Shown: piece after piece, positions 4,091 through 29,270 of the stretch
Position numbering within the stretch: position 1 is the first letter of the stretch
Layout: each line of letters opens with the position of its first letter
IMG/VR virus record: IMGVR_UViG_3300024492_000008
Coordinates: 1-29,270 of that record
Strand: one strand, 5' to 3'
DNA: 29,270 bases
From: a virus
Notes under the pieces: model-generated
Told to the model about the DNA's origin: nothing
Database searches by the model: none
The model's input: the letters and a program-made list of their open reading frames with translations, nothing else
Position numbers and translations under genes: made by a program

Positions 4091-7081
4091 ATGGCTGAGA
4101 ATACTTTCAAATCTCCAGGTTTTTTCGAAAGAGAAATAGAATTGACCGCGGAGAAACAGTCTCCGATAGGTACACCTGCTGGAGTTATAGGTTCATCTCT
4201 GATGGGACCAGCTTTTGTTCCTCTAACGATAGGAACATTTACAGATTTCGAAAATCGTTTTGGAACTGTATCACCAGAAAAACCAGCAACTTATGCTGTG
4301 AGAGAATGGTTGAAAAATAGGACAGCATTGACTTTTATGAGAACTCTAGGTGCTGGTGCTAATGCGACTCCTGCAGACTTTGGAATTACAAGACAGTGGG
4401 GTACAGTAAAAAATGCTGGCTTTAAAGTCGTAGGTGACAGTGATACCGGAAAGGGTTTTGTTCAATTCTTATATGCGGATCACGTTGTGAGTGCTAATTC
4501 AGATGTTGGATTTCCAATCTATACGGATAATGACACTGTGTCTCTTTCTCTTAGAGAAAACCCACCGACAAATGATTCTCCAGTAAAAATCGTAAGAGGT
4601 ATGATTATTTGTGCAGAAGACGCAAAATTTGAATTGAAAAACTTTAGTGGAGTGTATGGTGCGTCTGGTATGGTATCCGAAGACAATGGATCAAATACTT
4701 TTGTGATGAAATTGACCAAAGGAGAGAGCACTAAAGAACTTACTGTCTCTTTGGATCCGGATCACACTTATTACTTAGGTAAAGTGTTAAACACTGATGC
4801 TAAAAAATTCCAATCTGAAGGATATGTCCTCTATTTGGATCTCGGCGTAGAGCAAGAATTAGCTCCTGCAATGACAGCTGCTAATGCCAATCATGTTTTT
4901 ATCTCTCATGGTAAATCTGATGTTGATGCTTCTAATAATGAATCTTTTGCTTCAGCATTTGGTAGATTTGATACAAGATATAAGGCTCCAAAGACTACGT
5001 CTTTTATCTCTCAACCTTTCGGAAAAATCGAATATGATTTGTTTCACTTTGAGTGTTTGAGCGATGGCGCTTATGCTAATACTGAATTCAAGATCTCAAT
5101 CGCAAACTTGAGAAAATCTTCAGATCCTAATGACAAATATGGAACTTTTGATGTCCTCGTGAGAAAGTTCAATGATACAGATTTTGCTCCTCAAGTTCTA
5201 GAGAGATTTATCAATTGTACATTGAATCCTAATTCGGATTCTTTCATCGCTAGAAAAATCGGTGATAAAAAAGTAGTATTTGCTTTTGATGCAGATCTTG
5301 AAGAAGAGAGAAGATTAGTTATCTCTGGTAGATACCCAAATCGTTCTTTGAATATCAGGGTAGTGATGAATGACTCCGTATACAAAGGTGAAGTTCCACA
5401 AGAAGCAGTACCTTTTGGATTCCGAGGAATTCCTGTGCTAGATATATCTGAAAACTTGGCTGCAGGAGCAGCAAATTATAATTTTCCAGCAATGCCTTTG
5501 ACTTTCAAAGCTACAAAAGGTCAAGTGAAATATTCAAACCTTTCGTATGTAGGAGAACCTGGAAATAACGAGAGAGCAGATAAGAGAATCTACTTTGGTG
5601 TGAAAACCACAAGAATTGTTGATGATAGCGAAGTCGCTGATGGCGTGCTTGAATCTAACTTGTCTGGTGAGATGTCTCCGGTAGTAAAGGCTTATACAAA
5701 GTTTATGGGTGTAAAAGGTGGATCTTCCGAAATAGGGCACTTTGTAAGTGATGCAGACAGTTTCAATAATAATAAGTTCACATTAGCTCGAATAGCATTG
5801 AACACCAATTCTGCTGCAAACTTCGATAGTCTCTCCTCTGTAAATGCAATGAGAGAAGCTTGTTATATTAGAAATGGCAATCCTGATGCTAGTGATTATT
5901 CTGTTACAGATTCTCTATCTCAAGCTAAGAGAATGACTTTTGCTTCTTTGATTCACGATGATACTGCTAACAATTTCAATAAATTCTCAAACTTTGCAAA
6001 ATTCACTAACGTATTCTACGGTGGTTTTGATGGTTTGAACATCTTGGATGGTGATATCCAACACATGAATGATAGAGCAGCTTCTTCCGAAACATCTAAT
6101 TCTCTTGATTCTACCGGAAAGGCTTCCGATTCTTTCACTGGTGGTTTGGGACTAAGCGGAACAGATGACGGTACAATGATGGGTAAGGGTAAAGATAACA
6201 ATATTATCTCTTCTTATCGTCAAGCAATCAAAATTATGACAGATCCTATGACAACAAAAATCAACTTGTTGGCAATCCCAGGAATTAGAGATCCTTACAT
6301 CACTGATTTTGCTGCTAATATGGTAAGAGATTATTCTTTAGCAATGTTCTTGATGGATATTCCAGCATTTGACAAAGATCAAAAAAGAATATTCTCTTCA
6401 GGACGTCCGGACATCGAGTATACTGGAAATGCTTTGGAAGCACGGGCTTTGAATAACAACTATGTCGCTACGTATTTCCCAGATGTATTCATCACAGATC
6501 CTATCAACAATCGAAGAGTTTTAGTACCTGCTTCTGTTGCTGCTATCGGAGCTCTAGGATACAACGATGCTGTAGCATATCCTTGGTTTGCGCCAGCCGG
6601 TTTCAATCGCGGTGGTTTGGATTTCGTAGAAAACGTAAAAACACGCTTGAGTTCATCAGATCGAGATGATTTGTACGAAAGAAAAATCAATCCGATTGCA
6701 AACTTCCCTAATGGAGGATTCGTAATCTTCGGACAAAAGACAATGCAAATCAATGAATCTGCTTTAGATAGAGTCAACGTGAGAAGACTAATGCTTGAAG
6801 TAAAACGACAAGTAGTAGAAGTCGCTAGCACAATTCTCTTCGAACAAAATAATAAAGCGACAAGAGACAGATTGGTGGGATTAATTTCGCCTAAGTTGTC
6901 CACGATTCAAGCACAGTCCGGTGTAGAGAGATTTAAAGTGATCTGTGACGAGACAAATAATTCACAGACAGACGCTGATGAATATAAATTGAATGGTAAA
7001 ATTATCATTGTTCCAACAAAGACAATCGAATTTATCGCAATAGATTTTATCGTTACAAATTCAGGCGTTTCTTTCGGATAA
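4091..7081 (+). CDS. 18: Contractile tail sheath protein 1, T4 gp18-like
   Basis: A 996-residue sheath protein; T4 gp18 has 659. The N-terminus (KSPGFFEREIEL, then PAGVIGSSLMGPAFVP) and the C-terminus (ALDRVNVRRLMLEVKRQ, then ILFEQN, then PTKTIEFIAIDFIV) carry the conserved sheath arms that link neighbouring subunits and drive contraction. Further conserved sheath blocks are the Trp-Phe-Ala-Pro-Ala-Gly-Phe segment and the DLYERKINPI segment near residue 860. The extra length lies in the middle, so the outer surface domains are probably enlarged. It is clearly paralogous to the next gene over both ends. The ribosome site is AAGGAG at 4077-4082, and the gene precedes the second sheath and the tube gene. 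Confidence 0.93.
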   Translation: MAENTFKSPGFFEREIELTAEKQSPIGTPAGVIGSSLMGPAFVPLTIGTFTDFENRFGTVSPEKPATYAVREWLKNRTALTFMRTLGAGANATPADFGITRQWGTVKNAGFKVVGDSDTGKGFVQFLYADHVVSANSDVGFPIYTDNDTVSLSLRENPPTNDSPVKIVRGMIICAEDAKFELKNFSGVYGASGMVSEDNGSNTFVMKLTKGESTKELTVSLDPDHTYYLGKVLNTDAKKFQSEGYVLYLDLGVEQELAPAMTAANANHVFISHGKSDVDASNNESFASAFGRFDTRYKAPKTTSFISQPFGKIEYDLFHFECLSDGAYANTEFKISIANLRKSSDPNDKYGTFDVLVRKFNDTDFAPQVLERFINCTLNPNSDSFIARKIGDKKVVFAFDADLEEERRLVISGRYPNRSLNIRVVMNDSVYKGEVPQEAVPFGFRGIPVLDISENLAAGAANYNFPAMPLTFKATKGQVKYSNLSYVGEPGNNERADKRIYFGVKTTRIVDDSEVADGVLESNLSGEMSPVVKAYTKFMGVKGGSSEIGHFVSDADSFNNNKFTLARIALNTNSAANFDSLSSVNAMREACYIRNGNPDASDYSVTDSLSQAKRMTFASLIHDDTANNFNKFSNFAKFTNVFYGGFDGLNILDGDIQHMNDRAASSETSNSLDSTGKASDSFTGGLGLSGTDDGTMMGKGKDNNIISSYRQAIKIMTDPMTTKINLLAIPGIRDPYITDFAANMVRDYSLAMFLMDIPAFDKDQKRIFSSGRPDIEYTGNALEARALNNNYVATYFPDVFITDPINNRRVLVPASVAAIGALGYNDAVAYPWFAPAGFNRGGLDFVENVKTRLSSSDRDDLYERKINPIANFPNGGFVIFGQKTMQINESALDRVNVRRLMLEVKRQVVEVASTILFEQNNKATRDRLVGLISPKLSTIQAQSGVERFKVICDETNNSQTDADEYKLNGKIIIVPTKTIEFIAIDFIVTNSGVSFG

Positions 7082-7119: not shown

Positions 7120-10100
7120 ATGGCAGAAAGAATTTTGAAAAGTCCTGGAATTTCCACAAGAGAACTAGACTTGAGTGCACCTGGTAAGGTTTCTCCTCAA
7201 GGCATTCCAGCTGGAATTATCGGGACAGCCGAAAAAGGCCCTGCTTTCGTACCTACAAATTTTGCTACTCTCAATGAGTTCACCAGTCTCTTTGGTGGCT
7301 CAATGGGAGTGCATTACGGTGCGATGGCGATGAAAGAATGGATGAGAAATGCTCGATCAGGTGTATTTTTGAGAACACTCGGAGTGGGAAATGCTCAAGC
7401 CGCAGACGCTTCTTCTGGCGTCACAGAAAATGCAGGTTTCATTGTAGGAGATGAAATCGTCGATTATACAAATACATCAGCGTCTTCACAAGGATTAGAA
7501 TCTGAAGGAAGTGTATGGGTTCCAAGTGCTAATCCTTTTGCAGGAGACGGTGCTGATATAGATCCTGATACGATCACAGTATCTAATCCTATAGTAGGCT
7601 CAGATGAAATCGCAGCAGTATCAGAAATTACTAGTATATCTTTTGGAAACGGCGACGGCATCAATGATAATATTACCCCAAGTGATTGGAATGGTGTAGT
7701 TATACTAATTGCAGAAGATAATAGTGGAACAACTGCATTTTATTTTGACAATAACGGAGATGCTACTGTTGATGGATTGACTGTAACAGATGGACAACTA
7801 ACCCCTTCAACATATTGGGATGGTACATCGGTTACTGGACTTTTAAATATCCAGATTGTTGATATATCAAGTGCTACAACAGAACAAGATTTATATAATG
7901 CATTTGCTGCACAAATAGGAGGAGCAAATAATACCTTGGCTATTGAGTCTGAAAACACTATTGATGTAATATCTATTCAGGCGCAAGCAGGTGCTGTATA
8001 TGCTTCTTCTACAATACAGGAAAATCCAAATATTGTGTCTTTATCTGTTTCTTCATCTCAAACTGGCGAAGATCTTGTCCCTGCTGTTTCTGCTGAATGG
8101 ACTATTACAGTAGATGATTTGCAAATCTTAGATGGTACTCTGATCACTGTAACAAAAGTAGATGGTAGTCCTTTCGTATTTGAGTTCACAAGCACAGGAG
8201 ACATTGCATCCACTTCAGATTGGCCAATCGATATATCTTCAGCTACAACTGTTGACGAAGCTGCTACAATTATTCGAGGTGAAATTCAAGATGCGATATC
8301 TGATCAAGGAATATCTTTGCAATCGGCAACCGTATTGAATAGCGTAGTAACTCTTGTGACTGTTGTTCCAGATACAAACAATGGTGAATCTTGGCCTACT
8401 GTTGATGAATGGGAACCTTCTACTACTTCGACAGTTCCTGGCACTACTTATTTCTTAGCTGTGAATATGACGACTTCCGATAACACGGAAGACTATTTGG
8501 GCATCAGTACAGGTGCTAGCTCTAAAGTTCTTCGTGGTGTTCTAATGGTAGCAAATGGAATTGTGCCTGCATTACAACAATCAGGTGAGACTCTAAGTAG
8601 TGTTCCTACTGTAGCATACGGAGAGTTTGGAGCTGGTAAAGACGTTGGTGGAGCTACTGGCGAATTACAGAGTACAGATGACAGATTCGTCATTGCTTTG
8701 AACGGTTTTGATAATTCGAACTATAGTTCATTGTTGACAGCTTCTTTCGATCCTACTTCTCCTGTGTACTTTCCAAAAGTATTGAATACAGATCCAAATA
8801 AGCTCCAAGAGAGAGGTCACTTCTTGTATGCTCACTACGATATCCCAGGTGGATTAGCTGTAGCAACAGGTGAAGGAACAAATGCTGTATATCTCACAAA
8901 GAGTCAACACGCTGCAAGTGGCTTGGCTAAAGACAATTTCTCTAAGACAAACTTTGACAACTGGCAACAAAAATTCACACATGCTGCAACTCCTTGGATC
9001 ACGTCTCAAGTGCTGGGAGACACTGCTAAGAAATTATTCAGATTTCACGCTTTAGATGCTGGTGCTTCTGGTGCAGGTAAATTCAAAGTATCAATTTCTT
9101 CTATCAATAAGTCCGCAGAAATGTCGAATCCTTATGGCACATTTGACGTTTTGATTCGTTCTGCGAGTGATTCTGATGACAAACCCGTTGTACTACAACA
9201 ATTCCGTGGTGTTAACTTGAATCCTGGTTCCGATCGATATATTGCAAGACTAATTGGTGATCAACACGTATTCTTCGATTTTGAAAAACCTGTAGGTAAA
9301 CAAAAATTAGTGATGGAAGGTCTATATCCAAATCAGTCTCCATTCGTACGTATTGAAGTAGATGAATCTATCGAAGACGGTACAATGAATCCTAGTGCAC
9401 TTCCTGTAGGTTTCCAAGGTAAGAATTTCTTACAATTGGATGCAGAAGACTTAGAAGAAGCACTTGTTGAAGCTCCTTTGCCATTGAGAAATAATGTGTC
9501 AATTGGAAGTGGAAATACTAAAGTAGTAGATTCTAGATTCTTCTGGGGTGTTCAAATCCAAGACATTAGAGAAGTATCTTTGAAAAATAAAGAGACAACT
9601 GTAATTTCCCTCGTAAATGAACTCACGAAACATTTTACCACAACAGGTGGAACAAATGCTGCTTGGCAAGGAGATTCTACGACAGCTGATGCTTATAACA
9701 ATAATGCTTTCACTCTCGAGAACATCTTGATTGCTACCAAGACTGATAATGATGGCGCTGTAAATACAGAAAATCCAGTAGATCCTAATAAGTGGCACGA
9801 GGCTGTATATATTAGAAACAAAGCAGGATATAACTTGAGTACTGCTGCTCTCGTATCTTCCGGATTTCTGGAAAGTGTCGAGATAGGAGCAGACGGCAGT
9901 AACAAATTTAAGAATTCTGCTAATGGCTATCGATTCTTGGATGTCTCTAAAGACTTTGGTCAATCCGCTTCGAAGAAATTCATTAAGTTCACTGTACCTT
10001 TCCAAGGTGGTTGGGACGGTTTGGATATCTTCGATAAAGAAAAGGCAAAAATGTCTAACGTATCATCCGTAAGAGAAATGGATACCCTAGGTTCTTCTTA

Positions 10101-11001
10101 CTTCGGTGGACCAGACGGTGCTACTACCGCTGCATTTAGAAAATCAATCGATATCCTTGCGGAAAAAACCGATGTCGATGTACAACTATTGGCAACTCCT
10201 GGAATGCGTTCTAATGGCATTACCGATTATGCAATCGATAAAACTGAAGAGAGATTCGATGCACTCTACATCTTAGACACAATGTCTTACGATCATGAGG
10301 GGTATTATGTGACAGCTTCTTCTCAAGAAGTTTCTGTGTCTAATACAGCACAAGCGTTGGCTAATAGAAACTTGGACACTTCATTCGCAGCTGCATATTT
10401 TCCAGACGTAGTGCTTAAAGACGGAGACACTGCAGTAGTAGTTCCTCCTTCGGTTCCTGTACTTGGAGCTTTGGCACTCAATGACGCAATTGCACATCCT
10501 TGGTATGCTCCTGCTGGTTTTGCTCGTGGAGCACTGCCTACCACTATTGAGACTGCTGTGAAATTGAATAGAGCTAATATGGATGTACTGTATGAAGCTG
10601 ATATCAATCCGATTACTTCATTTCCTTTGACAGGAGAATCTGTTGTGATTTTCGGTCAAAAGACACTCTTGCAAGCACAATCTGCTTTGGATAGAGTGAA
10701 CGTAAGACGTTTGCTGATTGATGTGAGAAGAAAAGTAAAACAAGTATCCAACAGTATCTTGTTCGAACCAAACAGAGACTCTACTCTGTCTAAGTTCTCT
10801 GCAATGGTGAATCCAATCCTTCAGAGAATTCAATCTCAAAATGGTCTCGAAAAATTCAAAGTGATTATCGATACCACTACAACAACTCAAGAAGACATCG
10901 AAAATAATACAATCCGAGGAAAAATCTTCTTACAGCCTACGAAGTCTATCGAGTTTATCTCTCTTGACTTTGTTGTTGGAAATCAAGGAATGGATGTATA
11001 A
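7120..11001 (+). CDS. 18: Contractile tail sheath protein 2, enlarged T4 gp18-like paralogue
   Basis: A 1293-residue sheath protein, about twice T4 gp18. Residues 1-90 match sheath 1 closely (KSPGISTREL, PAGIIGTAEKGPAFVP, FLRTLGVGN). The C-terminal block (ALDRVNVRRLLIDVRRKV, ILFEPN, PTKSIEFISLDFVVGNQG) carries the same contraction arms. The main difference is an insertion at about residues 100-450, rich in Thr, Ser, Asp and Gly with little Lys or Arg. It contains two related beta-rich repeats and would be surface exposed. AGGAG precedes the ATG. Either the two paralogues build a mixed sheath, or one is decorative or confined to one end. Both reading frames look intact, so neither looks like a decaying copy. 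Confidence 0.9.
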   Translation: MAERILKSPGISTRELDLSAPGKVSPQGIPAGIIGTAEKGPAFVPTNFATLNEFTSLFGGSMGVHYGAMAMKEWMRNARSGVFLRTLGVGNAQAADASSGVTENAGFIVGDEIVDYTNTSASSQGLESEGSVWVPSANPFAGDGADIDPDTITVSNPIVGSDEIAAVSEITSISFGNGDGINDNITPSDWNGVVILIAEDNSGTTAFYFDNNGDATVDGLTVTDGQLTPSTYWDGTSVTGLLNIQIVDISSATTEQDLYNAFAAQIGGANNTLAIESENTIDVISIQAQAGAVYASSTIQENPNIVSLSVSSSQTGEDLVPAVSAEWTITVDDLQILDGTLITVTKVDGSPFVFEFTSTGDIASTSDWPIDISSATTVDEAATIIRGEIQDAISDQGISLQSATVLNSVVTLVTVVPDTNNGESWPTVDEWEPSTTSTVPGTTYFLAVNMTTSDNTEDYLGISTGASSKVLRGVLMVANGIVPALQQSGETLSSVPTVAYGEFGAGKDVGGATGELQSTDDRFVIALNGFDNSNYSSLLTASFDPTSPVYFPKVLNTDPNKLQERGHFLYAHYDIPGGLAVATGEGTNAVYLTKSQHAASGLAKDNFSKTNFDNWQQKFTHAATPWITSQVLGDTAKKLFRFHALDAGASGAGKFKVSISSINKSAEMSNPYGTFDVLIRSASDSDDKPVVLQQFRGVNLNPGSDRYIARLIGDQHVFFDFEKPVGKQKLVMEGLYPNQSPFVRIEVDESIEDGTMNPSALPVGFQGKNFLQLDAEDLEEALVEAPLPLRNNVSIGSGNTKVVDSRFFWGVQIQDIREVSLKNKETTVISLVNELTKHFTTTGGTNAAWQGDSTTADAYNNNAFTLENILIATKTDNDGAVNTENPVDPNKWHEAVYIRNKAGYNLSTAALVSSGFLESVEIGADGSNKFKNSANGYRFLDVSKDFGQSASKKFIKFTVPFQGGWDGLDIFDKEKAKMSNVSSVREMDTLGSSYFGGPDGATTAAFRKSIDILAEKTDVDVQLLATPGMRSNGITDYAIDKTEERFDALYILDTMSYDHEGYYVTASSQEVSVSNTAQALANRNLDTSFAAAYFPDVVLKDGDTAVVVPPSVPVLGALALNDAIAHPWYAPAGFARGALPTTIETAVKLNRANMDVLYEADINPITSFPLTGESVVIFGQKTLLQAQSALDRVNVRRLLIDVRRKVKQVSNSILFEPNRDSTLSKFSAMVNPILQRIQSQNGLEKFKVIIDTTTTTQEDIENNTIRGKIFLQPTKSIEFISLDFVVGNQGMDV
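7621..8319 (+). repeat. Two diverged beta-domain repeats inside sheath 2
   Basis: Residues of about 168-265 and 325-400 share a pattern. Strands with Ile/Val alternate, then a Phe-rich strand (TTAFYFDNNGD and SPFVFEFTSTGD), then the near-identical stretch VDISSATTEQD / IDISSATTVDE followed by an Ala/Ile helix. The repeat is visible at protein level and only weakly at DNA level. It looks like an internally duplicated surface domain inserted into the sheath fold. Confidence 0.55.
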
Positions 11002-21942: not shown

Positions 21943-22233
21943 ATGATAAAAAGGTATTCGAAAGACAGAATTTTATCCGGCAATAAATTGTCCACTCATG
22001 CTGGCGTAGCTAATATCAGGCGTGCCATTGAATTGAATTTATTGACAACAACAGAAATATTTGTCACGGAATCCAAGAGGTTAGACCATCTTGCTCATGA
22101 ATTCTTAGGTGACTCTCAACTCTGGTGGGTTCTTGCTGCTACTTCTAACATTGGATGGGGATTACAAGTTCCTCCTGGTACAATTATTAGGGTGCCAAAT
22201 GACTTGGCAAAAATTGAGGCGTTATTAGGATGA
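21943..22233 (+). CDS. 53: LysM-domain baseplate protein, gp53-like
   Basis: A 96-residue protein. The second half carries the LysM-type pattern seen in baseplate proteins: RLDHLAHEFLGDSQLWWVLAATSNIG, then a Pro-Pro-Gly-Thr-x-I-R-V-P ending. T4 gp53 (196 residues) and P2 gpX use such a domain to anchor baseplate parts to the tube or hub; this one is a short version, about half of T4 gp53. Its stop overlaps the hub gene start by four bases (ATGA), so the two are translationally coupled. The position between a tube cap-like and a hub-like gene supports a baseplate role. Confidence 0.7.
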   Translation: MIKRYSKDRILSGNKLSTHAGVANIRRAIELNLLTTTEIFVTESKRLDHLAHEFLGDSQLWWVLAATSNIGWGLQVPPGTIIRVPNDLAKIEALLG

Positions 22234-25130
22234 GTAATTTAGAAGACGAAATCTACAAATTGAACAAATATCTGAATATCAAGAGTTCTGTCGATATGAT
22301 TAAACTCTTATTAAATCCTAGTCTAAAAAATGATATGAGGACAGATACCACGACAGTAGAGTCTTCTCTTGAAAAAATGATTAAATCTCTTCTATCAGTT
22401 CAGAAAAAAGCCGAATTTGGCTCTGATATGAAGAGATCTATAGACGAATATTGTAATTCTCATACAAGCAAAGATAATGCAACAAAGGGTTTAGCAGATA
22501 GGCTAAAAGAACCTCCTACTGATAAAAATAGACCGCCATTTTCTTTAACTACTTGGTCTGATGACCAAAATGCAAACGGCTATCAAAGAAAAACAGGAGT
22601 CAAAAGTATCTTAGGGCTAGACGATTCAATCAAGACGTCTATATCAGTATTCGAAATATCTGAGCCTTCTTTAAATTTTTCAAATAGAGACTGTTCTTCT
22701 GTAGCGACATTTTTGCAATTGTTACCTTCTATAGAGATATCTCGAGCTGTTCCTTATTTTGATTGTAAGGTAGTTACAACAGTACAAACTAATGAAGGCG
22801 AAATAGATAACCAAAGTGTTTTTGATAATGGAATTTCTATTGGAAAATTCTTGGGAGGTAAATTAGAGAATAGCGATAATAGTGTCCTGAACAAATATTT
22901 GCTAGCAAAATTTTCTGCAGGACAAACAGTTGACAAAAAAGTCCTTAACAATATGGAGAAAAATAAGAAATCAGATTATCCTAACACTAACGCTGGAATG
23001 GAATTATTTACGACTCCACAGACTTTGGTTCAAGGAAATGGTAAATATTTTGATTTAGATGCTAGAAAAAACGCAGTAAATCCAAGTCAACAGTCCATTA
23101 TGGATCCATTTAGACCCCTAATGACTTTTGAATCATTCACTTTGAATGTAGTTCCTGCAACTGGGATGATATCTACAAAACAGGCTGATGTAAAAATCAA
23201 ATTACACGACAGATCTAGAATGAATGAAATTGCTCCTCTTTTGGTGCCAGCAAGAATTGGAGACGTAGATCTTCACATTGAATGGGGGTGGAGTCATCCT
23301 GAAAGCGATCCTGAGAAAAATATATTTGGAGCGCTTATCAACTCAATGAGAGTCCAAGAGATATATGGAGTTTCCAATTCTTCATATTCTTTTACCCCAG
23401 AAGGACAAGTGGACATTTCGCTTAAGTTATATACAAAAGGTGCCCTCAATGTAGCTTATGATCTCATTAAAGGGAAACCCGGAACTGATGGAGCTGATCA
23501 GCAGAAAAAATTAGAAGATGCCGTATTAGCATTTAGAGAAGTAGTTTCGAATCTACGAGGAGAAGGCTATAATTTAAAAGATGATTTGGGAGCTCCGGAT
23601 ACTCTAAGTAAAGCATCGTCTTCCAGAGGTATATTATCTCTTACAGAGGATCAAATTAAAGAATTGAATGAATTTCTTAAGAATCTCAAAAAAGTGAAAA
23701 CTAATAATAATACTACAAGAGATGCAATGAAGAAGTTCTCCACGGCCTTTTCTGGAGCTTTGACAGCTAGTACCGATTTTGCGGCTCAGCAAACAAAGAA
23801 TTTGAATGCTTTATTTAGCGATATGTTTGATGGTGATGATCCTTATTTGGTTTCTCAGGTTGTAGGTGTTAAGCCACAACAAGTAAATATTAGCCATGAT
23901 ACTCACATATCTTTTGCGAAATTTTTATTATTTATATTAGGGACAAACCTTTTACATGCAGAACAAAAATTTGATGAAATTCAATTTATTTTTTATCCCA
24001 TGAATGAGTCCGCAATGTGGGCTAGAGAATTAAACGTGGGTCAATATCCTATGTCAAAAAGTCTCCTTAAAGACTTATTCGCTAAAGAGTTTGTTAAAAA
24101 TCCTACAATGAGAATTCAGACGCTTTTGAATCTAGTTAGAAAAATTTTCATGAACAATGTAGGAGATGACGTATATGGTTTTTCTGAGTTTTATGATTCT
24201 AAGAATAGATTAGAGATTAAAAAAGAGATAAAAGAAGATAAGACGAAAAAAGCTAATATGGGTATCAAAAAACAAGAAATCATGAAAGCGTGCTATGAAA
24301 CCACCGGTGCAAAATTTAAGAAACCTAATATTACCATGGTAATAGAGACTGTGAAAGATGAAAGTGGTACAAAATCTGTTTTGAGACTTCATTTTTCCGA
24401 TGCAAACTGTTCTTCTTATTCTTCTTATGCTGATCTTTGGAATTCTATGAATAAATCAAATATTGGTACGATTGCAGAATATAAGAGACTTAAAATCAAG
24501 AGTACTCAAAAATCTCCTAACTTCAAAGGAGACAAGAAAAAACAACAAGAGTTTGAGAAGAATAAAGGCGATTATTCTTCTAGGTTAAATAGTCATGAAG
24601 AAGCTTTTCAAAAAGCAAAACAATTTTTTATCGATGAGAAAATATTAGAAAAAGTAGGAAATGAGAAATATAAAATTAAAGGTGGCCCAAATAGAATACG
24701 TGGCCTAATGGCTTCAAATATGCCTACACTAAAATATGGAACTGAGTACTCCGGAATTTTAGCAGCTTCTCTCTCTAACAATTCGAATCCTCAGATGGAA
24801 ACTATTCAAATGCAAAGAGCTCAAAAAGACAGAAGTAAACCTAATTTGCCAGGAGATGATGGCCTTCCAATGAGGGTGAGACCAGCGCAATTGAGTCTAG
24901 ACGTATTTGGATGCCCATTAGTGAATTTTGGACAGCAGTTTTTTGTTGATTTTAATACTAATTCGACTATCGACGATGTGTATTTTGTAACAGGAGTGTC
25001 TCATAATATTTCTCCAGGAGAATTTAAGACACAGATAAAATTGACTCCTATGCAAGCCTTCGGTCAATTTGGAGCATTAGAAGACACGCTTGGGGATATA
25101 TCAGATATGGCTGCTGAAGAATCAGAATAG
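22230..25130 (+). CDS. 27: Baseplate hub protein, gp27-like
   Basis: A 966-residue protein coupled to the LysM gene. Near residues 150-190 it has PSLNFSNRD, then a helix and IEISRAVPYFDCKVV, a pattern I associate with hub proteins of environmental T4-like phages. About residue 341 begins RIGDVDLHIEWGWSHPE, then MRVQEIYGVSNSSYSF and a strand DISLKLYTKGA. Near the C-terminus (about 919-940) is VTGVSHNISPGEFKTQIKLTP, the closing beta hairpin typical of gp27/gpD-type hub domains. The middle (about 640-830) is Lys-rich and helical. T4 gp27 has 391 residues, so this is much larger and may include functions held by separate T4 proteins. No lysozyme domain is visible. Confidence 0.65.
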   Translation: MSNLEDEIYKLNKYLNIKSSVDMIKLLLNPSLKNDMRTDTTTVESSLEKMIKSLLSVQKKAEFGSDMKRSIDEYCNSHTSKDNATKGLADRLKEPPTDKNRPPFSLTTWSDDQNANGYQRKTGVKSILGLDDSIKTSISVFEISEPSLNFSNRDCSSVATFLQLLPSIEISRAVPYFDCKVVTTVQTNEGEIDNQSVFDNGISIGKFLGGKLENSDNSVLNKYLLAKFSAGQTVDKKVLNNMEKNKKSDYPNTNAGMELFTTPQTLVQGNGKYFDLDARKNAVNPSQQSIMDPFRPLMTFESFTLNVVPATGMISTKQADVKIKLHDRSRMNEIAPLLVPARIGDVDLHIEWGWSHPESDPEKNIFGALINSMRVQEIYGVSNSSYSFTPEGQVDISLKLYTKGALNVAYDLIKGKPGTDGADQQKKLEDAVLAFREVVSNLRGEGYNLKDDLGAPDTLSKASSSRGILSLTEDQIKELNEFLKNLKKVKTNNNTTRDAMKKFSTAFSGALTASTDFAAQQTKNLNALFSDMFDGDDPYLVSQVVGVKPQQVNISHDTHISFAKFLLFILGTNLLHAEQKFDEIQFIFYPMNESAMWARELNVGQYPMSKSLLKDLFAKEFVKNPTMRIQTLLNLVRKIFMNNVGDDVYGFSEFYDSKNRLEIKKEIKEDKTKKANMGIKKQEIMKACYETTGAKFKKPNITMVIETVKDESGTKSVLRLHFSDANCSSYSSYADLWNSMNKSNIGTIAEYKRLKIKSTQKSPNFKGDKKKQQEFEKNKGDYSSRLNSHEEAFQKAKQFFIDEKILEKVGNEKYKIKGGPNRIRGLMASNMPTLKYGTEYSGILAASLSNNSNPQMETIQMQRAQKDRSKPNLPGDDGLPMRVRPAQLSLDVFGCPLVNFGQQFFVDFNTNSTIDDVYFVTGVSHNISPGEFKTQIKLTPMQAFGQFGALEDTLGDISDMAAEESE

Positions 25131-25164: not shown

Positions 25165-26274
25165 ATGATATATTTAAATAATAAAATTACTGGCACTAAA
25201 AAATCTATAGGGTGGGATATTTCTTCTCAAGATTGGGCTTGGTCTTCTTCAGAAGGAATTTCGTACATGGATTGGATTCTTGGAGATGAATATCAACAGA
25301 ATTCAGTAGAGTCGATACTGAGAATCTATGGGAAAGAAGTCAAAGAACTCATTCCGGAAAATTATTCAATAATGCTTCGATCTTTAAATTTAGATTCGAA
25401 AGCAAATATTTTGAAAATTTTAGGTCCAAAATATTCTCAAGTCATTAAGTCTCAATTGATAGAGTGTGCAGAGTGGCTTCACTCAAGAAAAGAAGATCAA
25501 TATATACGGTTTTATCAAGACACTAATAAACTTTTAACTCAATTGCAGCCTGCAAAGATAGATTTGACTCGATATAGAAGTATCATGAACATGGGTATAG
25601 ACTTAGGCACAGAGCCTTATATTGACGAAGATGGCACATATAAGATTCCTCCTCCTATATATTCACGTGATCGCTCTAAAACTGGTAGATTTTCGATTGT
25701 GAAAGGAGTCAGAGCCCTTACGATGCAAGCATCTCATAGAAATATCTTGAAAGATGCTTGGCAGCTTGACTTCGAAGCATTAGAGCCTAGATTCTTATTG
25801 TCTCTCTTAGGCAAGAGTGTGTCTGGTGATTTTTATACTTGGGTGGGTGAACAGTGTGGATTTAAGACTATGAGTCGAGCACAAATCAAACTCGCTGTAA
25901 TATCATCAATGTATGGTCACAAGACTCAAATTCCAGAAGTCACTAGGGTCTTAGGTTTAGATGTGTTTGAAAAAGAGTTAGAAAAAGACGTCGTAAATGG
26001 CTGGACAAGGAACTGGTTTGGTAGACCTCTCAATGTGAAAGACGTAACAGGAAGACACTTAGTGTCTCTTTGGTTACAATCCACCGCTGCAGAAGCCTCG
26101 GTATTAGGTTTCCAGACATTTCTTAGAGATAATCCGAATGTCACACCACACTGGCTTATTCATGATGCCATGATTTATTCTTGCGATTCTCAATTAGAAC
26201 CAAGAGGCAGTATAATTATCGAATATAACGGTATGAAAATTACTATGCCATATAAGATAGGGAGAGTAGAATGA
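25165..26274 (+). CDS. Compact family A DNA polymerase-like protein, polymerase domain only
   Basis: A 369-residue protein with the ordered motifs of a Pol I polymerase domain. TGRFS at 173-177 matches the conserved TGRLSS. Motif A is LDFEALEPR, with D202, E207 and R209 spaced like D705, E710 and R712 of E. coli Pol I. Motif B is R238-x3-K242-x7-Y250-G251. FGRPLN near 285 matches the GRRR-x-LP loop, LQSTAAEA at 304-311 matches IQGTAAD, and motif C is HDA at 333-335, with the usual second acidic residue replaced by Ala. No 3'-5' or 5'-3' exonuclease domain is present, and the spacings A to B and B to Q305 are shorter than in E. coli. It lies directly behind baseplate genes, an unusual place for a replication gene. 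The ribosome site is weak. Activity on DNA is inferred, not shown. Confidence 0.75.
   Translation: MIYLNNKITGTKKSIGWDISSQDWAWSSSEGISYMDWILGDEYQQNSVESILRIYGKEVKELIPENYSIMLRSLNLDSKANILKILGPKYSQVIKSQLIECAEWLHSRKEDQYIRFYQDTNKLLTQLQPAKIDLTRYRSIMNMGIDLGTEPYIDEDGTYKIPPPIYSRDRSKTGRFSIVKGVRALTMQASHRNILKDAWQLDFEALEPRFLLSLLGKSVSGDFYTWVGEQCGFKTMSRAQIKLAVISSMYGHKTQIPEVTRVLGLDVFEKELEKDVVNGWTRNWFGRPLNVKDVTGRHLVSLWLQSTAAEASVLGFQTFLRDNPNVTPHWLIHDAMIYSCDSQLEPRGSIIIEYNGMKITMPYKIGRVE
26211..26218 (+). promoter_or_regulatory. TATAATTA inside the polymerase-like gene
   Basis: Exact octamer 52 bases before the start of the next gene but within coding sequence. It could drive the 197-residue gene or be a chance occurrence in AT-rich DNA; it is the one exact copy I noticed inside a gene. 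Confidence 0.2.
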
Positions 26275-26864
26275 AAAGAGATTTGATGTGGTACCTCTTA
26301 AGAGAAAATAAAGACGATAAAAAAGAAGAGAAACCAAAAGAAACTCCTAAGCCTGTAGAAAAGTCAGATTCTAAAAAAATAGGGAAACCTTTGCTTCCTT
26401 CTGGAAAAATGGGCCAAGATTTAGCTATTTTAATTAAAGAGATTCGTAAAGAATATAATACCAGTGTGTCTTCTACTTCTTTGTCAAGTTACAATGGGTC
26501 AAAATTATTGAAAAAACTAAATTTAAAGTCAAATTTAGATAAGTCTCAATGGACAAAAGTACTAAAAGACATTAAAGATGCCACTTCTATTTCGGAGATA
26601 TTCTTAGATTCTAAAGCAGTAGATGACTCTCTTCTAAAAATTCAATTAGCACCAAATTGGCGTTCTATTGGGGTGAAAAAAGAAGACTCCAAGAATCAAG
26701 ACAAAGACGAAAATATGTCTCGAAGATTTATCGGCTTTTGGATTACTGAGATTCTAGTTGCAATTGGCCACGATAGAAATAGAGAGGCTGGTCTTGCTTT
26801 AAAAGATTTTGATCTTCGACTTGAAGGCAATAATGTTTATATAGTTCAGACTAAGAAGTCTTAA
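26271..26864 (+). CDS. Hypothetical protein coupled to the polymerase-like gene
   Basis: A 197-residue protein whose ATG overlaps the previous stop by four bases (ATGA) and has GGAG at 26261-26264, so the two are expressed together. The N-terminus is basic and hydrophobic (KRDLMWYLLREN), followed by a Lys/Glu/Pro-rich linker to about residue 40. Then come a folded helical region (MGQDLAILIKEIRKEYN and KVLKDIKDATS), a short Lys/Asp-rich linker near 140-148 and a C-terminal part SRRFIGFWITEILVAIGHDRN ending in two predicted strands. I do not recognise the family. The tight coupling suggests a partner of the polymerase-like protein or simply a shared transcript. Confidence 0.7.
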   Translation: MKRDLMWYLLRENKDDKKEEKPKETPKPVEKSDSKKIGKPLLPSGKMGQDLAILIKEIRKEYNTSVSSTSLSSYNGSKLLKKLNLKSNLDKSQWTKVLKDIKDATSISEIFLDSKAVDDSLLKIQLAPNWRSIGVKKEDSKNQDKDENMSRRFIGFWITEILVAIGHDRNREAGLALKDFDLRLEGNNVYIVQTKKS

Positions 26865-26935: not shown

Positions 26936-27499
26936 ATGAGAGAACTCACTATAGATGATATTAAGAAGAATTGGAAAATATATAGTACGATTTTGACTCG
27001 ACTAGAAGACGATAATATCAATAATCTGCTGGAGAAATTAGGACAACGCTTAGCACTATCACCAGCAAATCAAATTAAGGGTCAATATGGAGCTTATCTT
27101 GGTGGTTTGGTCGAGACTTCAACCAAATTAGGTAAATCTATGCAAGCGCTCAATGAATTCCACGGAAATGCTTGCGATATCAAATCAGTCTATAAGGTCG
27201 GGCTCCTTCATGATGTAGGAAGACTTGGTACGCTTACAGATGAATATTTTTTACAGCAAGATTCAGATTGGCATAGAGAGAAATTAGGACATCAATTTAA
27301 AATCAATCCAAACATAAAGACTTCTCATTTACAGAGAACTCTATTTTTGCTCTCTCAGTTTCAAATTGTTCTCTCTGAAGAAGAATTTAATGCTTTGTTA
27401 GGCTTAGATGATAAGGAAGCCAAGAATCAATTAGGGGCTATTCTCTTACATGCGAGAAATATGTTAGAAAATTCTAACAATGTAGAATATCCTGTATAA
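26936..27499 (+). CDS. HD-domain-like protein with altered metal-site residues
   Basis: A 187-residue protein with GGAG before ATG 26936. It resembles small phage HD phosphohydrolase-like proteins: a GQYGAYLGGLVETST segment, a helix, then GLLHDVGRLG (H92, D93), an aromatic DEYF segment, QDSDWHREKLG, a region TSHLQRTLFLLSQF, an SEEEFNALLGLDD segment, and LLHARNM near 171-176. In canonical members the first segment reads GGLVxHS; here the His position is T61. The last Asp of an H-x-A-D-type ending appears as N175. Central HD and several downstream His residues remain. The fold is probably kept, while metal binding and hydrolysis may be changed. Substrate unknown. The family match is from memory. 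Confidence 0.65.
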   Translation: MRELTIDDIKKNWKIYSTILTRLEDDNINNLLEKLGQRLALSPANQIKGQYGAYLGGLVETSTKLGKSMQALNEFHGNACDIKSVYKVGLLHDVGRLGTLTDEYFLQQDSDWHREKLGHQFKINPNIKTSHLQRTLFLLSQFQIVLSEEEFNALLGLDDKEAKNQLGAILLHARNMLENSNNVEYPV

Positions 27500-27502: not shown

Positions 27503-27514
27503 CCTAGGAATATG

Positions 27515-27548
27515 ATGCCTCCGTATTCATGGAGGCATTTTATATTTT
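27515..27548 (+). terminator. Terminator-like hairpin after HD-like gene
   Basis: ATGCCTCC (27515-27522) and GGAGGCAT (27531-27538) form eight perfect pairs around an eight-base loop. They are followed by a T-rich stretch broken by one A pair (TTTTATATTTT). It probably ends the preceding transcript, but it also lies in the leader of any transcript from the box at 27495. Confidence 0.6.
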
Positions 27549-27560
27549 AGGAGATTGATT

Positions 27561-27896
27561 ATGCGTAGAAAATATTCTCTAATGGAAGCAATTTATGGAA
27601 ATTATCCAGAAGCTAAATTGAAACCATTAAACTCTTGGGGAGTCTGCACGTGTGATGATGAGTGTGATTGTGGTGCTATTTGTGACTGTGGAGATCCAAA
27701 TTGTGCACAGTGTGGAAACTCACTTACAGAAGCTGTATTGGAAGAAGACGAAGAACAAGTCTTGACTGATTGTCAAGAAGGTGATTGTGCAGGATGTTCT
27801 GAGTGTGACGGATCTATGCAAGAGAGTTCTGGATGTGCTGCTGGAGCTGGTTATATCGGCCCAATGGATGAAGCAGAAGAGACATTAGAAGAGTGA
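27561..27896 (+). CDS. Cysteine-rich acidic protein
   Basis: The start is ATG 27561, which has AGGAGA at 27549-27554 (a TTG six bases upstream is unlikely). Of 111 residues, 13 are Cys. Eight fall in a cluster at about residues 29-54 arranged as C-T-C, C-D-C, C-D-C and C-x2-C units, four more at about 76-87, and one near 97. The remaining sequence is acidic, ending in a Glu-rich tail, and the first 20 residues are basic (RRKYSLMEAIYG). The Cys spacing suggests metal binding, metallothionein- or zinc-cluster-like; I do not know the family. The short basic start resembles those of neighbouring small proteins. Confidence 0.7.
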   Translation: MRRKYSLMEAIYGNYPEAKLKPLNSWGVCTCDDECDCGAICDCGDPNCAQCGNSLTEAVLEEDEEQVLTDCQEGDCAGCSECDGSMQESSGCAAGAGYIGPMDEAEETLEE

Positions 27897-27971: not shown

Positions 27972-27983
27972 TGTGTTAACACA
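27972..27983 (+). other. 12-bp palindrome upstream of small gene
   Basis: TGTGTTAACACA reads identically on both strands and lies 16 bases before ATG 28000, just upstream of the AAAGGAGA site. It could be an operator, or form a small mRNA structure near the ribosome site. Confidence 0.35.
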
Positions 27984-27999
27984 TCAAAAGGAGAATGAA

Positions 28000-28359
28000 A
28001 TGAGACTTACTAAAGGTCAACTAAAACAAATTATTAGAGAAGAATACTCTCGATTGAAAAGACAAGGATTGATTACCGAGTCTTTCAGCTTTGATAAGCC
28101 AGACATCAATCCGGAAGGCCAGGAAGTCGATTGGGAAGATTTGGAGTGGTATCCAAAACATGTGATTGGCGATCTTGATGCGGAACCAGCCCTAACAATA
28201 CAACAAGATCAAAAAACCGGCCAATGGAGAATCAACACCCATTATTGGTCCGGCCTAAACATCTCACATCTAAGATTTGATTCACCAGCTGAGGCTGCAA
28301 ACGAAGCAGATAAGTATGGAATTCGAGGTGATATATATTATGGGCCTTACGATCGATAA
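28000..28359 (+). CDS. Small hypothetical protein with LTK-QLK-IIREE start
   Basis: The start is ATG 28000, which has AAAGGAGA at 27986-27993; an in-frame GTG at 27973 is not preceded by one. The 119-residue product opens with the amphipathic helix RLTKGQLKQIIREEYSRLKR. This kind of opening is shared by many small proteins of environmental T4-like phages, as far as I recall. Then come an acidic Trp-rich segment (EVDWEDLEWYPKH), the strand-turn-strand ALTIQQDQKTGQWRINTHYWSG and a helix SPAEAANEADKYGI. The part after residue 40 looks like a small alpha/beta fold. Function unknown; a packaged or regulatory small protein is possible. Confidence 0.7.
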   Translation: MRLTKGQLKQIIREEYSRLKRQGLITESFSFDKPDINPEGQEVDWEDLEWYPKHVIGDLDAEPALTIQQDQKTGQWRINTHYWSGLNISHLRFDSPAEAANEADKYGIRGDIYYGPYDR

Positions 28360-28653: not shown

Positions 28654-28681
28654 GGGGAGGTCAAAGACTTCCCCCTTTTTT
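28654..28681 (+). terminator. Rho-independent terminator upstream of gp32
   Basis: GGGGAGGTC (28654-28662) pairs with GACTTCCCC (28666-28674), nine pairs with one G-T and an AAA loop. One C and six Ts follow. It isolates gp32 from upstream transcription. Nothing else is evident in 28585-28737. Confidence 0.8.
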
Positions 28682-28765: not shown

Positions 28766-28801
28766 ATACTAAAAGTTAAATGTTAAACATTGGAGATAAA
28801 A

Positions 28802-29270
28802 ATGGCGATTGATTTCGAAGCTATTAAAAAACGATTGGCTGGTTTGACTGGCACAAATGATAAACAAAAATTGATGTGGAAACCACCAGAAGGTGAGACA
28901 ACTACTGTTCGTATTGTAGCGTTCCCAAATAGTGATGGAACTCCTTTTCAAGAACGTTACTTCTACTACGGTATCGAAAAATTTGGTATGTTGGCTCCTT
29001 ACCAATTTGGTAAACCAGATCCTGTCAATGAACTTATCCAAAAATTGAAATCTGAAGGTACTAAAGAGTCTTACGAGTTAGCTAAAAAGCTATATCCAAA
29101 GATGCGTACTTATGCTTTGGTCTTGGTTCGAGGAGAAGAGTCAGAAGGCTTGCGATTGTGGTCTTTTGGAAAAGGCATCTATCAAGACTTGTTGAAAACA
29201 ATGATGGATCCAGACTATGGTGATATTACTGATATCGAAAACGGTTTTGATATTAAGATTACTGTGACTA
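28802..29270 (+). CDS. 32: Single-stranded DNA-binding protein gp32, N-terminal part, cut by window end
   Basis: The frame is open to the last base; 156 residues are visible. GGAG at 28792-28795 sets the start. The sequence follows the gp32 core of environmental T4-like phages: KLMWKPPEGE, VRIVAFP, PFQERYFYYG, then FGKPDPVNELIQKL, YELAKKLYPKMR, ALVLVRGEESEGLRLWSFGKGIY and DPDYGDITDIENGFD. Gp32 coats single-stranded DNA during replication, recombination and repair. T4 gp32 binds zinc through His64 and three Cys; the matching region here has no Cys at all, so the zinc site is absent, as I recall for several non-enteric relatives. The acidic C-terminal tail lies beyond the window. Confidence 0.92.
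   Translation, partial: MAIDFEAIKKRLAGLTGTNDKQKLMWKPPEGETTTVRIVAFPNSDGTPFQERYFYYGIEKFGMLAPYQFGKPDPVNELIQKLKSEGTKESYELAKKLYPKMRTYALVLVRGEESEGLRLWSFGKGIYQDLLKTMMDPDYGDITDIENGFDIKITVT

Follow-up and report, generated by a model that had tools for sequence, protein, structure and literature searches.

Does the open reading frame at positions 25165 to 26274 of this phage DNA encode a genuine DNA polymerase and, if so, is it the enzyme that replicates the phage? The window, i.e., the whole stretch of DNA analyzed, is an entire IMG/VR record of 29,270 bases. The original prediction had read the frame as a compact polymerase domain of family A that stands alone in a T4-like phage, a reading that the results below uphold, the phage being a distant T4-like myovirus. 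The frame and its neighbors are:

21943..22233, + strand: gp25-like baseplate wedge protein (c4; phrog_7145, 4.9e-8)
22230..25130, + strand: hub-region protein of 966 aa (c11), directly upstream of the polymerase; weak match to phrog_184, baseplate hub
25165..26274, + strand: compact DNA polymerase domain of family A, 369 aa, ATG start
26271..26864, + strand: 197-aa protein without confident family; its start overlaps the polymerase stop (ATGA)
26936..27499, + strand: HD-domain-like phosphohydrolase of 187 aa (c21, 21 loci; PHROG 28876, E 5.1e-4)
27514..27539, + strand: intrinsic-terminator-like hairpin after the HD gene (terminator prediction)
28654..28674, + strand: second terminator-like hairpin, just before gp32 (terminator prediction)
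28790..29270, + strand: gp32-type single-strand DNA-binding protein, truncated where the contig ends (Pfam gp32 6.1e-8; phrog_1192 7.4e-17)

Translation of the frame places every family A motif at the residues predicted, namely motif 2 (TGR 173–175, within TGRFS 173–177), motif A (D202 with the steric-gate E207; R209 is also present), the O-helix (R238, K242, Y250 and G251), Q305-STAA and motif C (H333-D334), and, as had also been claimed, no exonuclease is fused to them. As a single sequence, the window polymerase had no match in Pfam, PHROGs or the PDB and gave nothing useful as a query in INPHARED and IMG/VR. A genome-collection scan with it found nothing, a degenerate DNA pattern of motif A had no match, and the hub protein used as search bait recovered no relatives. 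AlphaFold run on the window polymerase alone yielded an unusable model (pLDDT 34).

Relatives were reached through the partial gp32 of the window. A tblastn search with it led to three phages: Flavobacterium phage immuto, Microcystis phage Mel-JY01 and LR756508, an uncultured phage of 484 kb. Upstream of its gp32, each encodes a compact PolA-like protein, namely gp001 in immuto, which bears the annotation 'DNA polymerase family A' (Pfam DNA_pol_A 4.6e-11), WWT39333 in Mel-JY01, located behind structural genes, and in LR756508 the product of an ORF without annotation. An alignment of these three proteins (P0006 of immuto, P0008 and P0009) was used to seed a branch termed A4; against IMG/VR it gave at least 565 related stretches, 80 of which were kept. 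With gp32 as bait, 80 loci were collected from IMG/VR. The branch termed A3 comprises 54 loci (window included) that carry gp32 and a homologue of the window polymerase; no A3 representative was found among 50,697 INPHARED phage records.

We aligned 36 A3 sequences, the window polymerase and its IMG/VR relatives. Invariant in 36/36 were Y166, G174, R175, D202, E207, P208, D222, Y224, R238, K242, G251, Q305, S306, F316, H333 and D334. The DNA_pol_A (PF00476) match that the original prediction had called for was absent with the single sequence, but was obtained with its homologues, 28 of the 36 A3 members matching (best 7.4e-19). The A3 profile matched Pol nu, Aquifex and Bst Pol I and Taq in the PDB at 3.6e-12 to 1e-10. 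With the A3 alignment, AlphaFold2 modeled the window polymerase at pLDDT 94.3 and pTM 0.91, and all 43 Foldseek matches of this model in the PDB at E ≤ 0.001 were family A polymerases. TM-scores of these matches were modest (about 0.3–0.6 of the query), as is to be expected where subdomains differ in size and orientation. The model has a palm fold with the aspartates of motifs A and C and the R/K/Y-G residues of the O-helix. A chance match of motifs was considered and rejected on the invariance across 36 divergent sequences and on the structure model. Pairwise dN/dS ranged from 0.10 to 0.26 for pairs with estimable dS, and was 0.163 for the window vs. L091, with dS near saturation; such low values show that the polymerase gene is under purifying selection. 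We confirm that the product of ORF 25165–26274 is a genuine polymerase domain of family A that stands alone.

The position behind hub genes, which the original prediction had found striking, is real and is a family-wide feature. Across loci the upstream order is a large baseplate-region protein (c5), the gp25-like wedge protein (c4), a hub-region protein (c11 or c10) and PolA; the gp25-like gene is upstream in 29/31 A3 and 38/43 A4 loci, and the position of the c11 protein is conserved in 48 loci. On the 3′ side follow one to several small genes, gp32, RecA, a 5′-3′ exonuclease (PF02739), the DnaB helicase and ribonucleotide reductase, giving the polymerase a fixed hub-PolA-gp32-RecA-5′-3′ exonuclease-DnaB place. 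Wherever a gp32 locus extended 5 kb or more upstream (41 loci), the polymerase was present, and gp32 lay downstream in 33 of the 35 A4 polymerase loci with at least 5 kb of downstream sequence; since the A4 loci were found via the polymerase, the latter count is not biased by the gp32 bait.

Within the window, the ATGA overlap suggests that the 197-aa protein is possibly translationally coupled to the polymerase. The region has 7 terminator-like hairpins vs. 2.2 expected, and the two listed above lie between the polymerase gene and gp32, so that a shared transcript is not necessary. A homologue of the HD gene (L092:8933-9475) also has a weak HD match. Between the HD gene and gp32, a 113-aa ORF with a TTG start (27555-27896) contains a dense Cys run, CTCDDECDCGAICDCGDPNCAQC, and is possibly metal-binding. 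Proteins of these phages that otherwise have little in common share a short motif at their ends, resembling MRLTKxxLKxIIxEE (window 27973-28359, L007:14014-14328 and the C-terminus of L005:18610-19896); the window copy is matched at ∼80% by stretches at L091:8170 and 9225. Elsewhere in the window, 4091-7081 and 7120-11001 are large adjacent paralogues of the same cluster, with 94-nt and 68-nt direct repeats at 71%.

The A4 HMM had no direct match to the window polymerase, so intermediate sequences were needed to link the two branches. At the profile level A3 and A4 are homologous (hhalign 98.1%, E 6.6e-14), and they are also alike in gene order. In an unrooted tree with long branches, a well supported branch (100/99) parts four reference phage PolAs from A3 and A4.

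Branch A4, which holds immuto gp001, is divPolA1, a family described in 14 phage genomes, Flavobacterium phage immuto included, that accompanies a regular polymerase of family A, B or C, has replication genes conserved downstream, keeps the catalytic residues, and has a truncated thumb and an inactivated exonuclease (Yutin et al. 2024, PMC11348598). The replication context of the locus had already been described for divPolA1. A3 is related to immuto gp001 through the A3-A4 profile match, and resembles divPolA1 in its presence in addition to a regular polymerase and in the replication genes conserved downstream. Unlike divPolA1, A3 was accompanied by family C replicases alone, and no remnant of an exonuclease is detectable in it, the comparison of A3 and A4 N-termini giving no profile match (hhalign probability 0.6%). 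In the literature searched, divPolA1 is mentioned only by PMC11348598 and its preprint, and A3 looks like an undescribed branch related to it.

Three further systems bear comparison. As in bacterial DNA polymerase I (Klenow, Bst and Taq; PF00476), the A3 protein has palm, fingers and thumb with motifs A, B and C, but it is only about 370 aa long, lacks the 5′ nuclease and 3′-5′ exonuclease domains, has shorter fingers, and mostly has Ala or Ser in place of the Glu after the motif C Asp (Ala/Ser in 32/36, Glu in only 2). The divPolA2 of barbaviruses is likewise a small exonuclease-less PolA beside another replicase, but the variable neighborhood and unrelated N-terminal domain described for it set it apart (PMC11348598). 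Rhodothermus phage RM378, a distant T4-like phage with polymerase and exonuclease in separate genes, had been put forward as a precedent for a split family A polymerase. We rejected this precedent, since p024 is a PF03104 exonuclease and p092 a PF00136 polymerase, i.e., the split enzyme of RM378 is of family B.

The two branches differ at residues near the active site (F762 and R754 in E. coli, Klenow, numbering). All 36 A3 sequences have Glu at the steric gate (E207), Arg and Lys in the O-helix, and Leu, Ile or Met at the site equivalent to F762. In contrast, the steric-gate site of A4 is always His, its R754 site is Tyr in 32/33, and F762 is kept; L009:1322-2668 (residues 254-261 and 296) is an example of these motif A and O-helix sites. 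The His, together with Tyr for the O-helix Arg, might alter sugar discrimination in A4. To judge from its residues, A3 appears to be a DNA polymerase whose catalytic metal ligands are intact, and its invariant E207 fits a DNA rather than an RNA polymerase. T7-like phages recruited family A for transcription. For divPolA2, a role as RNA polymerase or primase was raised by Yutin et al. (PMC11348598). With E207 invariant and the significant PDB fold matches all to DNA polymerases, we consider such a role very improbable for A3.

Some of the same features would suit an enzyme of lesion bypass or end joining that behaves like Pol nu or theta: there is no proofreading domain, the residue at the F762-equivalent site is not Phe, Pol nu is the best PDB sequence match of the A3 profile, and the fingers are short, with 55 residues from Y250 to Q305 in the window polymerase vs. 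83 in Klenow (E. coli numbering). The Pol nu match, however, is only marginally better than that to Bst or Taq Pol I, a Pol theta-like helicase fusion is absent, and the constant neighbors are general replication genes; we regard such a role as unlikely.

Which polymerase, then, replicates these phages? Among 13 A3 records of 123–289 kb, 11 carry a family C (DnaE-like) polymerase with an open frame of 1,035–1,269 aa (∼1,200 aa), whereas a family B polymerase, the gp43 type that the original prediction had suggested looking for, and a second DNA_pol_A match were each found in 0/13. The family C gene was not found in L132 and L135. The records may be fragments. Further A3 records of 48–86 kb also carry a family C polymerase.

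The lineage of the window itself leads to such a gene. The window ends at gp32, and its end is overlapped by L089 at 99.9% and by L088 at 98.3% over 1,359 columns. L088 continues through RecA, the 5′-3′ exonuclease, DnaB and ribonucleotide reductase, and ends inside the DnaE N-terminus: its last ∼120 bases encode the start of a DnaE PHP domain, with a frame change there, and follow the same neighbor gene as in relatives. Two insertions were seen in this contig. An ORF that matches Vsr and DUF559 nucleases splits the RecA gene (L088:1794-4604), probably through insertion of a homing endonuclease, and a similar split is seen in L098; the ribonucleotide reductase of L088 (7672-10611) carries an intein-splicing domain within its barrel domain.

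In A4 phages the replicases vary. Family B was found in Mel-JY01 and ten IMG/VR contigs, immuto has a full second PolA of 777 aa, and L052 and L073 have family C. In the tree this family C pair nests among family B bearers, so that the replicase apparently changed while the compact polymerase stayed. The 484-kb LR756508 (W03) has, besides the compact PolA, a family B polymerase in pieces and a 575-aa family C fragment (near 260623-266900 and 47415-48068).

With a separate family C polymerase in relatives and the start of one in the window lineage, the compact polymerase is unlikely to be the phage's replicase, one of the roles first proposed for it. The case for that role is that the gp32-RecA-nuclease-helicase block contains the compact polymerase rather than the family C gene, the family C enzyme then having some other job; Yutin et al. 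(PMC11348598) likewise read the divPolA1 context as one of replication and the context of the regular polymerase as less telling. A stand-alone 3′-5′ exonuclease could perhaps assist, and the search for a separate exonuclease did turn up a DnaQ-like RNase_T gene (c17) between the polymerase and gp32 in 25 loci. None was detected, however, in several A3 records, and in the window the HD-domain-like gene lies in this stretch instead. Together with the ∼1,200-aa family C polymerase of most large A3 records, and the family B or full family A enzyme of sister-branch phages, this leaves the replicase reading improbable, and among the options put forward in the original prediction the better fit is 'repair or specialised synthesis enzyme'.

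We favor, at a probability of about 0.65, an active, exonuclease-less accessory polymerase of Pol I type, with the family C enzyme in charge of bulk synthesis. We infer catalytic activity, a gap-filling role and a partnership with the nuclease as follows: (i) the compact polymerase would extend 3′ ends on a gp32-coated template; (ii) the gaps filled would be Okazaki-fragment junctions, or recombination or repair intermediates; (iii) the 5′-3′ FEN-type nuclease encoded a few genes downstream would remove the primer; and (iv) bulk synthesis would be carried out by the separate phage-encoded family C (DnaE-like) polymerase. A more specific proposal, to which we give slightly less than even odds, is that the gene would supply the polymerase to a 'split Pol I' of the phage whose other half is the FEN-type nuclease of the same block, the accessory enzyme being fixed while the replicase swaps among families A, B and C. 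A3 would then be the minimal form, devoid of any exonuclease domain and paired with a phage-encoded DnaE in the way that bacteria pair Pol I with Pol III.

These data indicate that (i) a large clade of uncultured myoviruses has two DNA polymerases with a bacteria-like division of labor; and (ii) the small polymerase is the constant part of the replication block, in which the replicase is swapped. They also offer very small natural family A polymerases (about 340–400 aa) for biochemistry, and caution against equating a 'polA' found in phages of this kind with the replicase.
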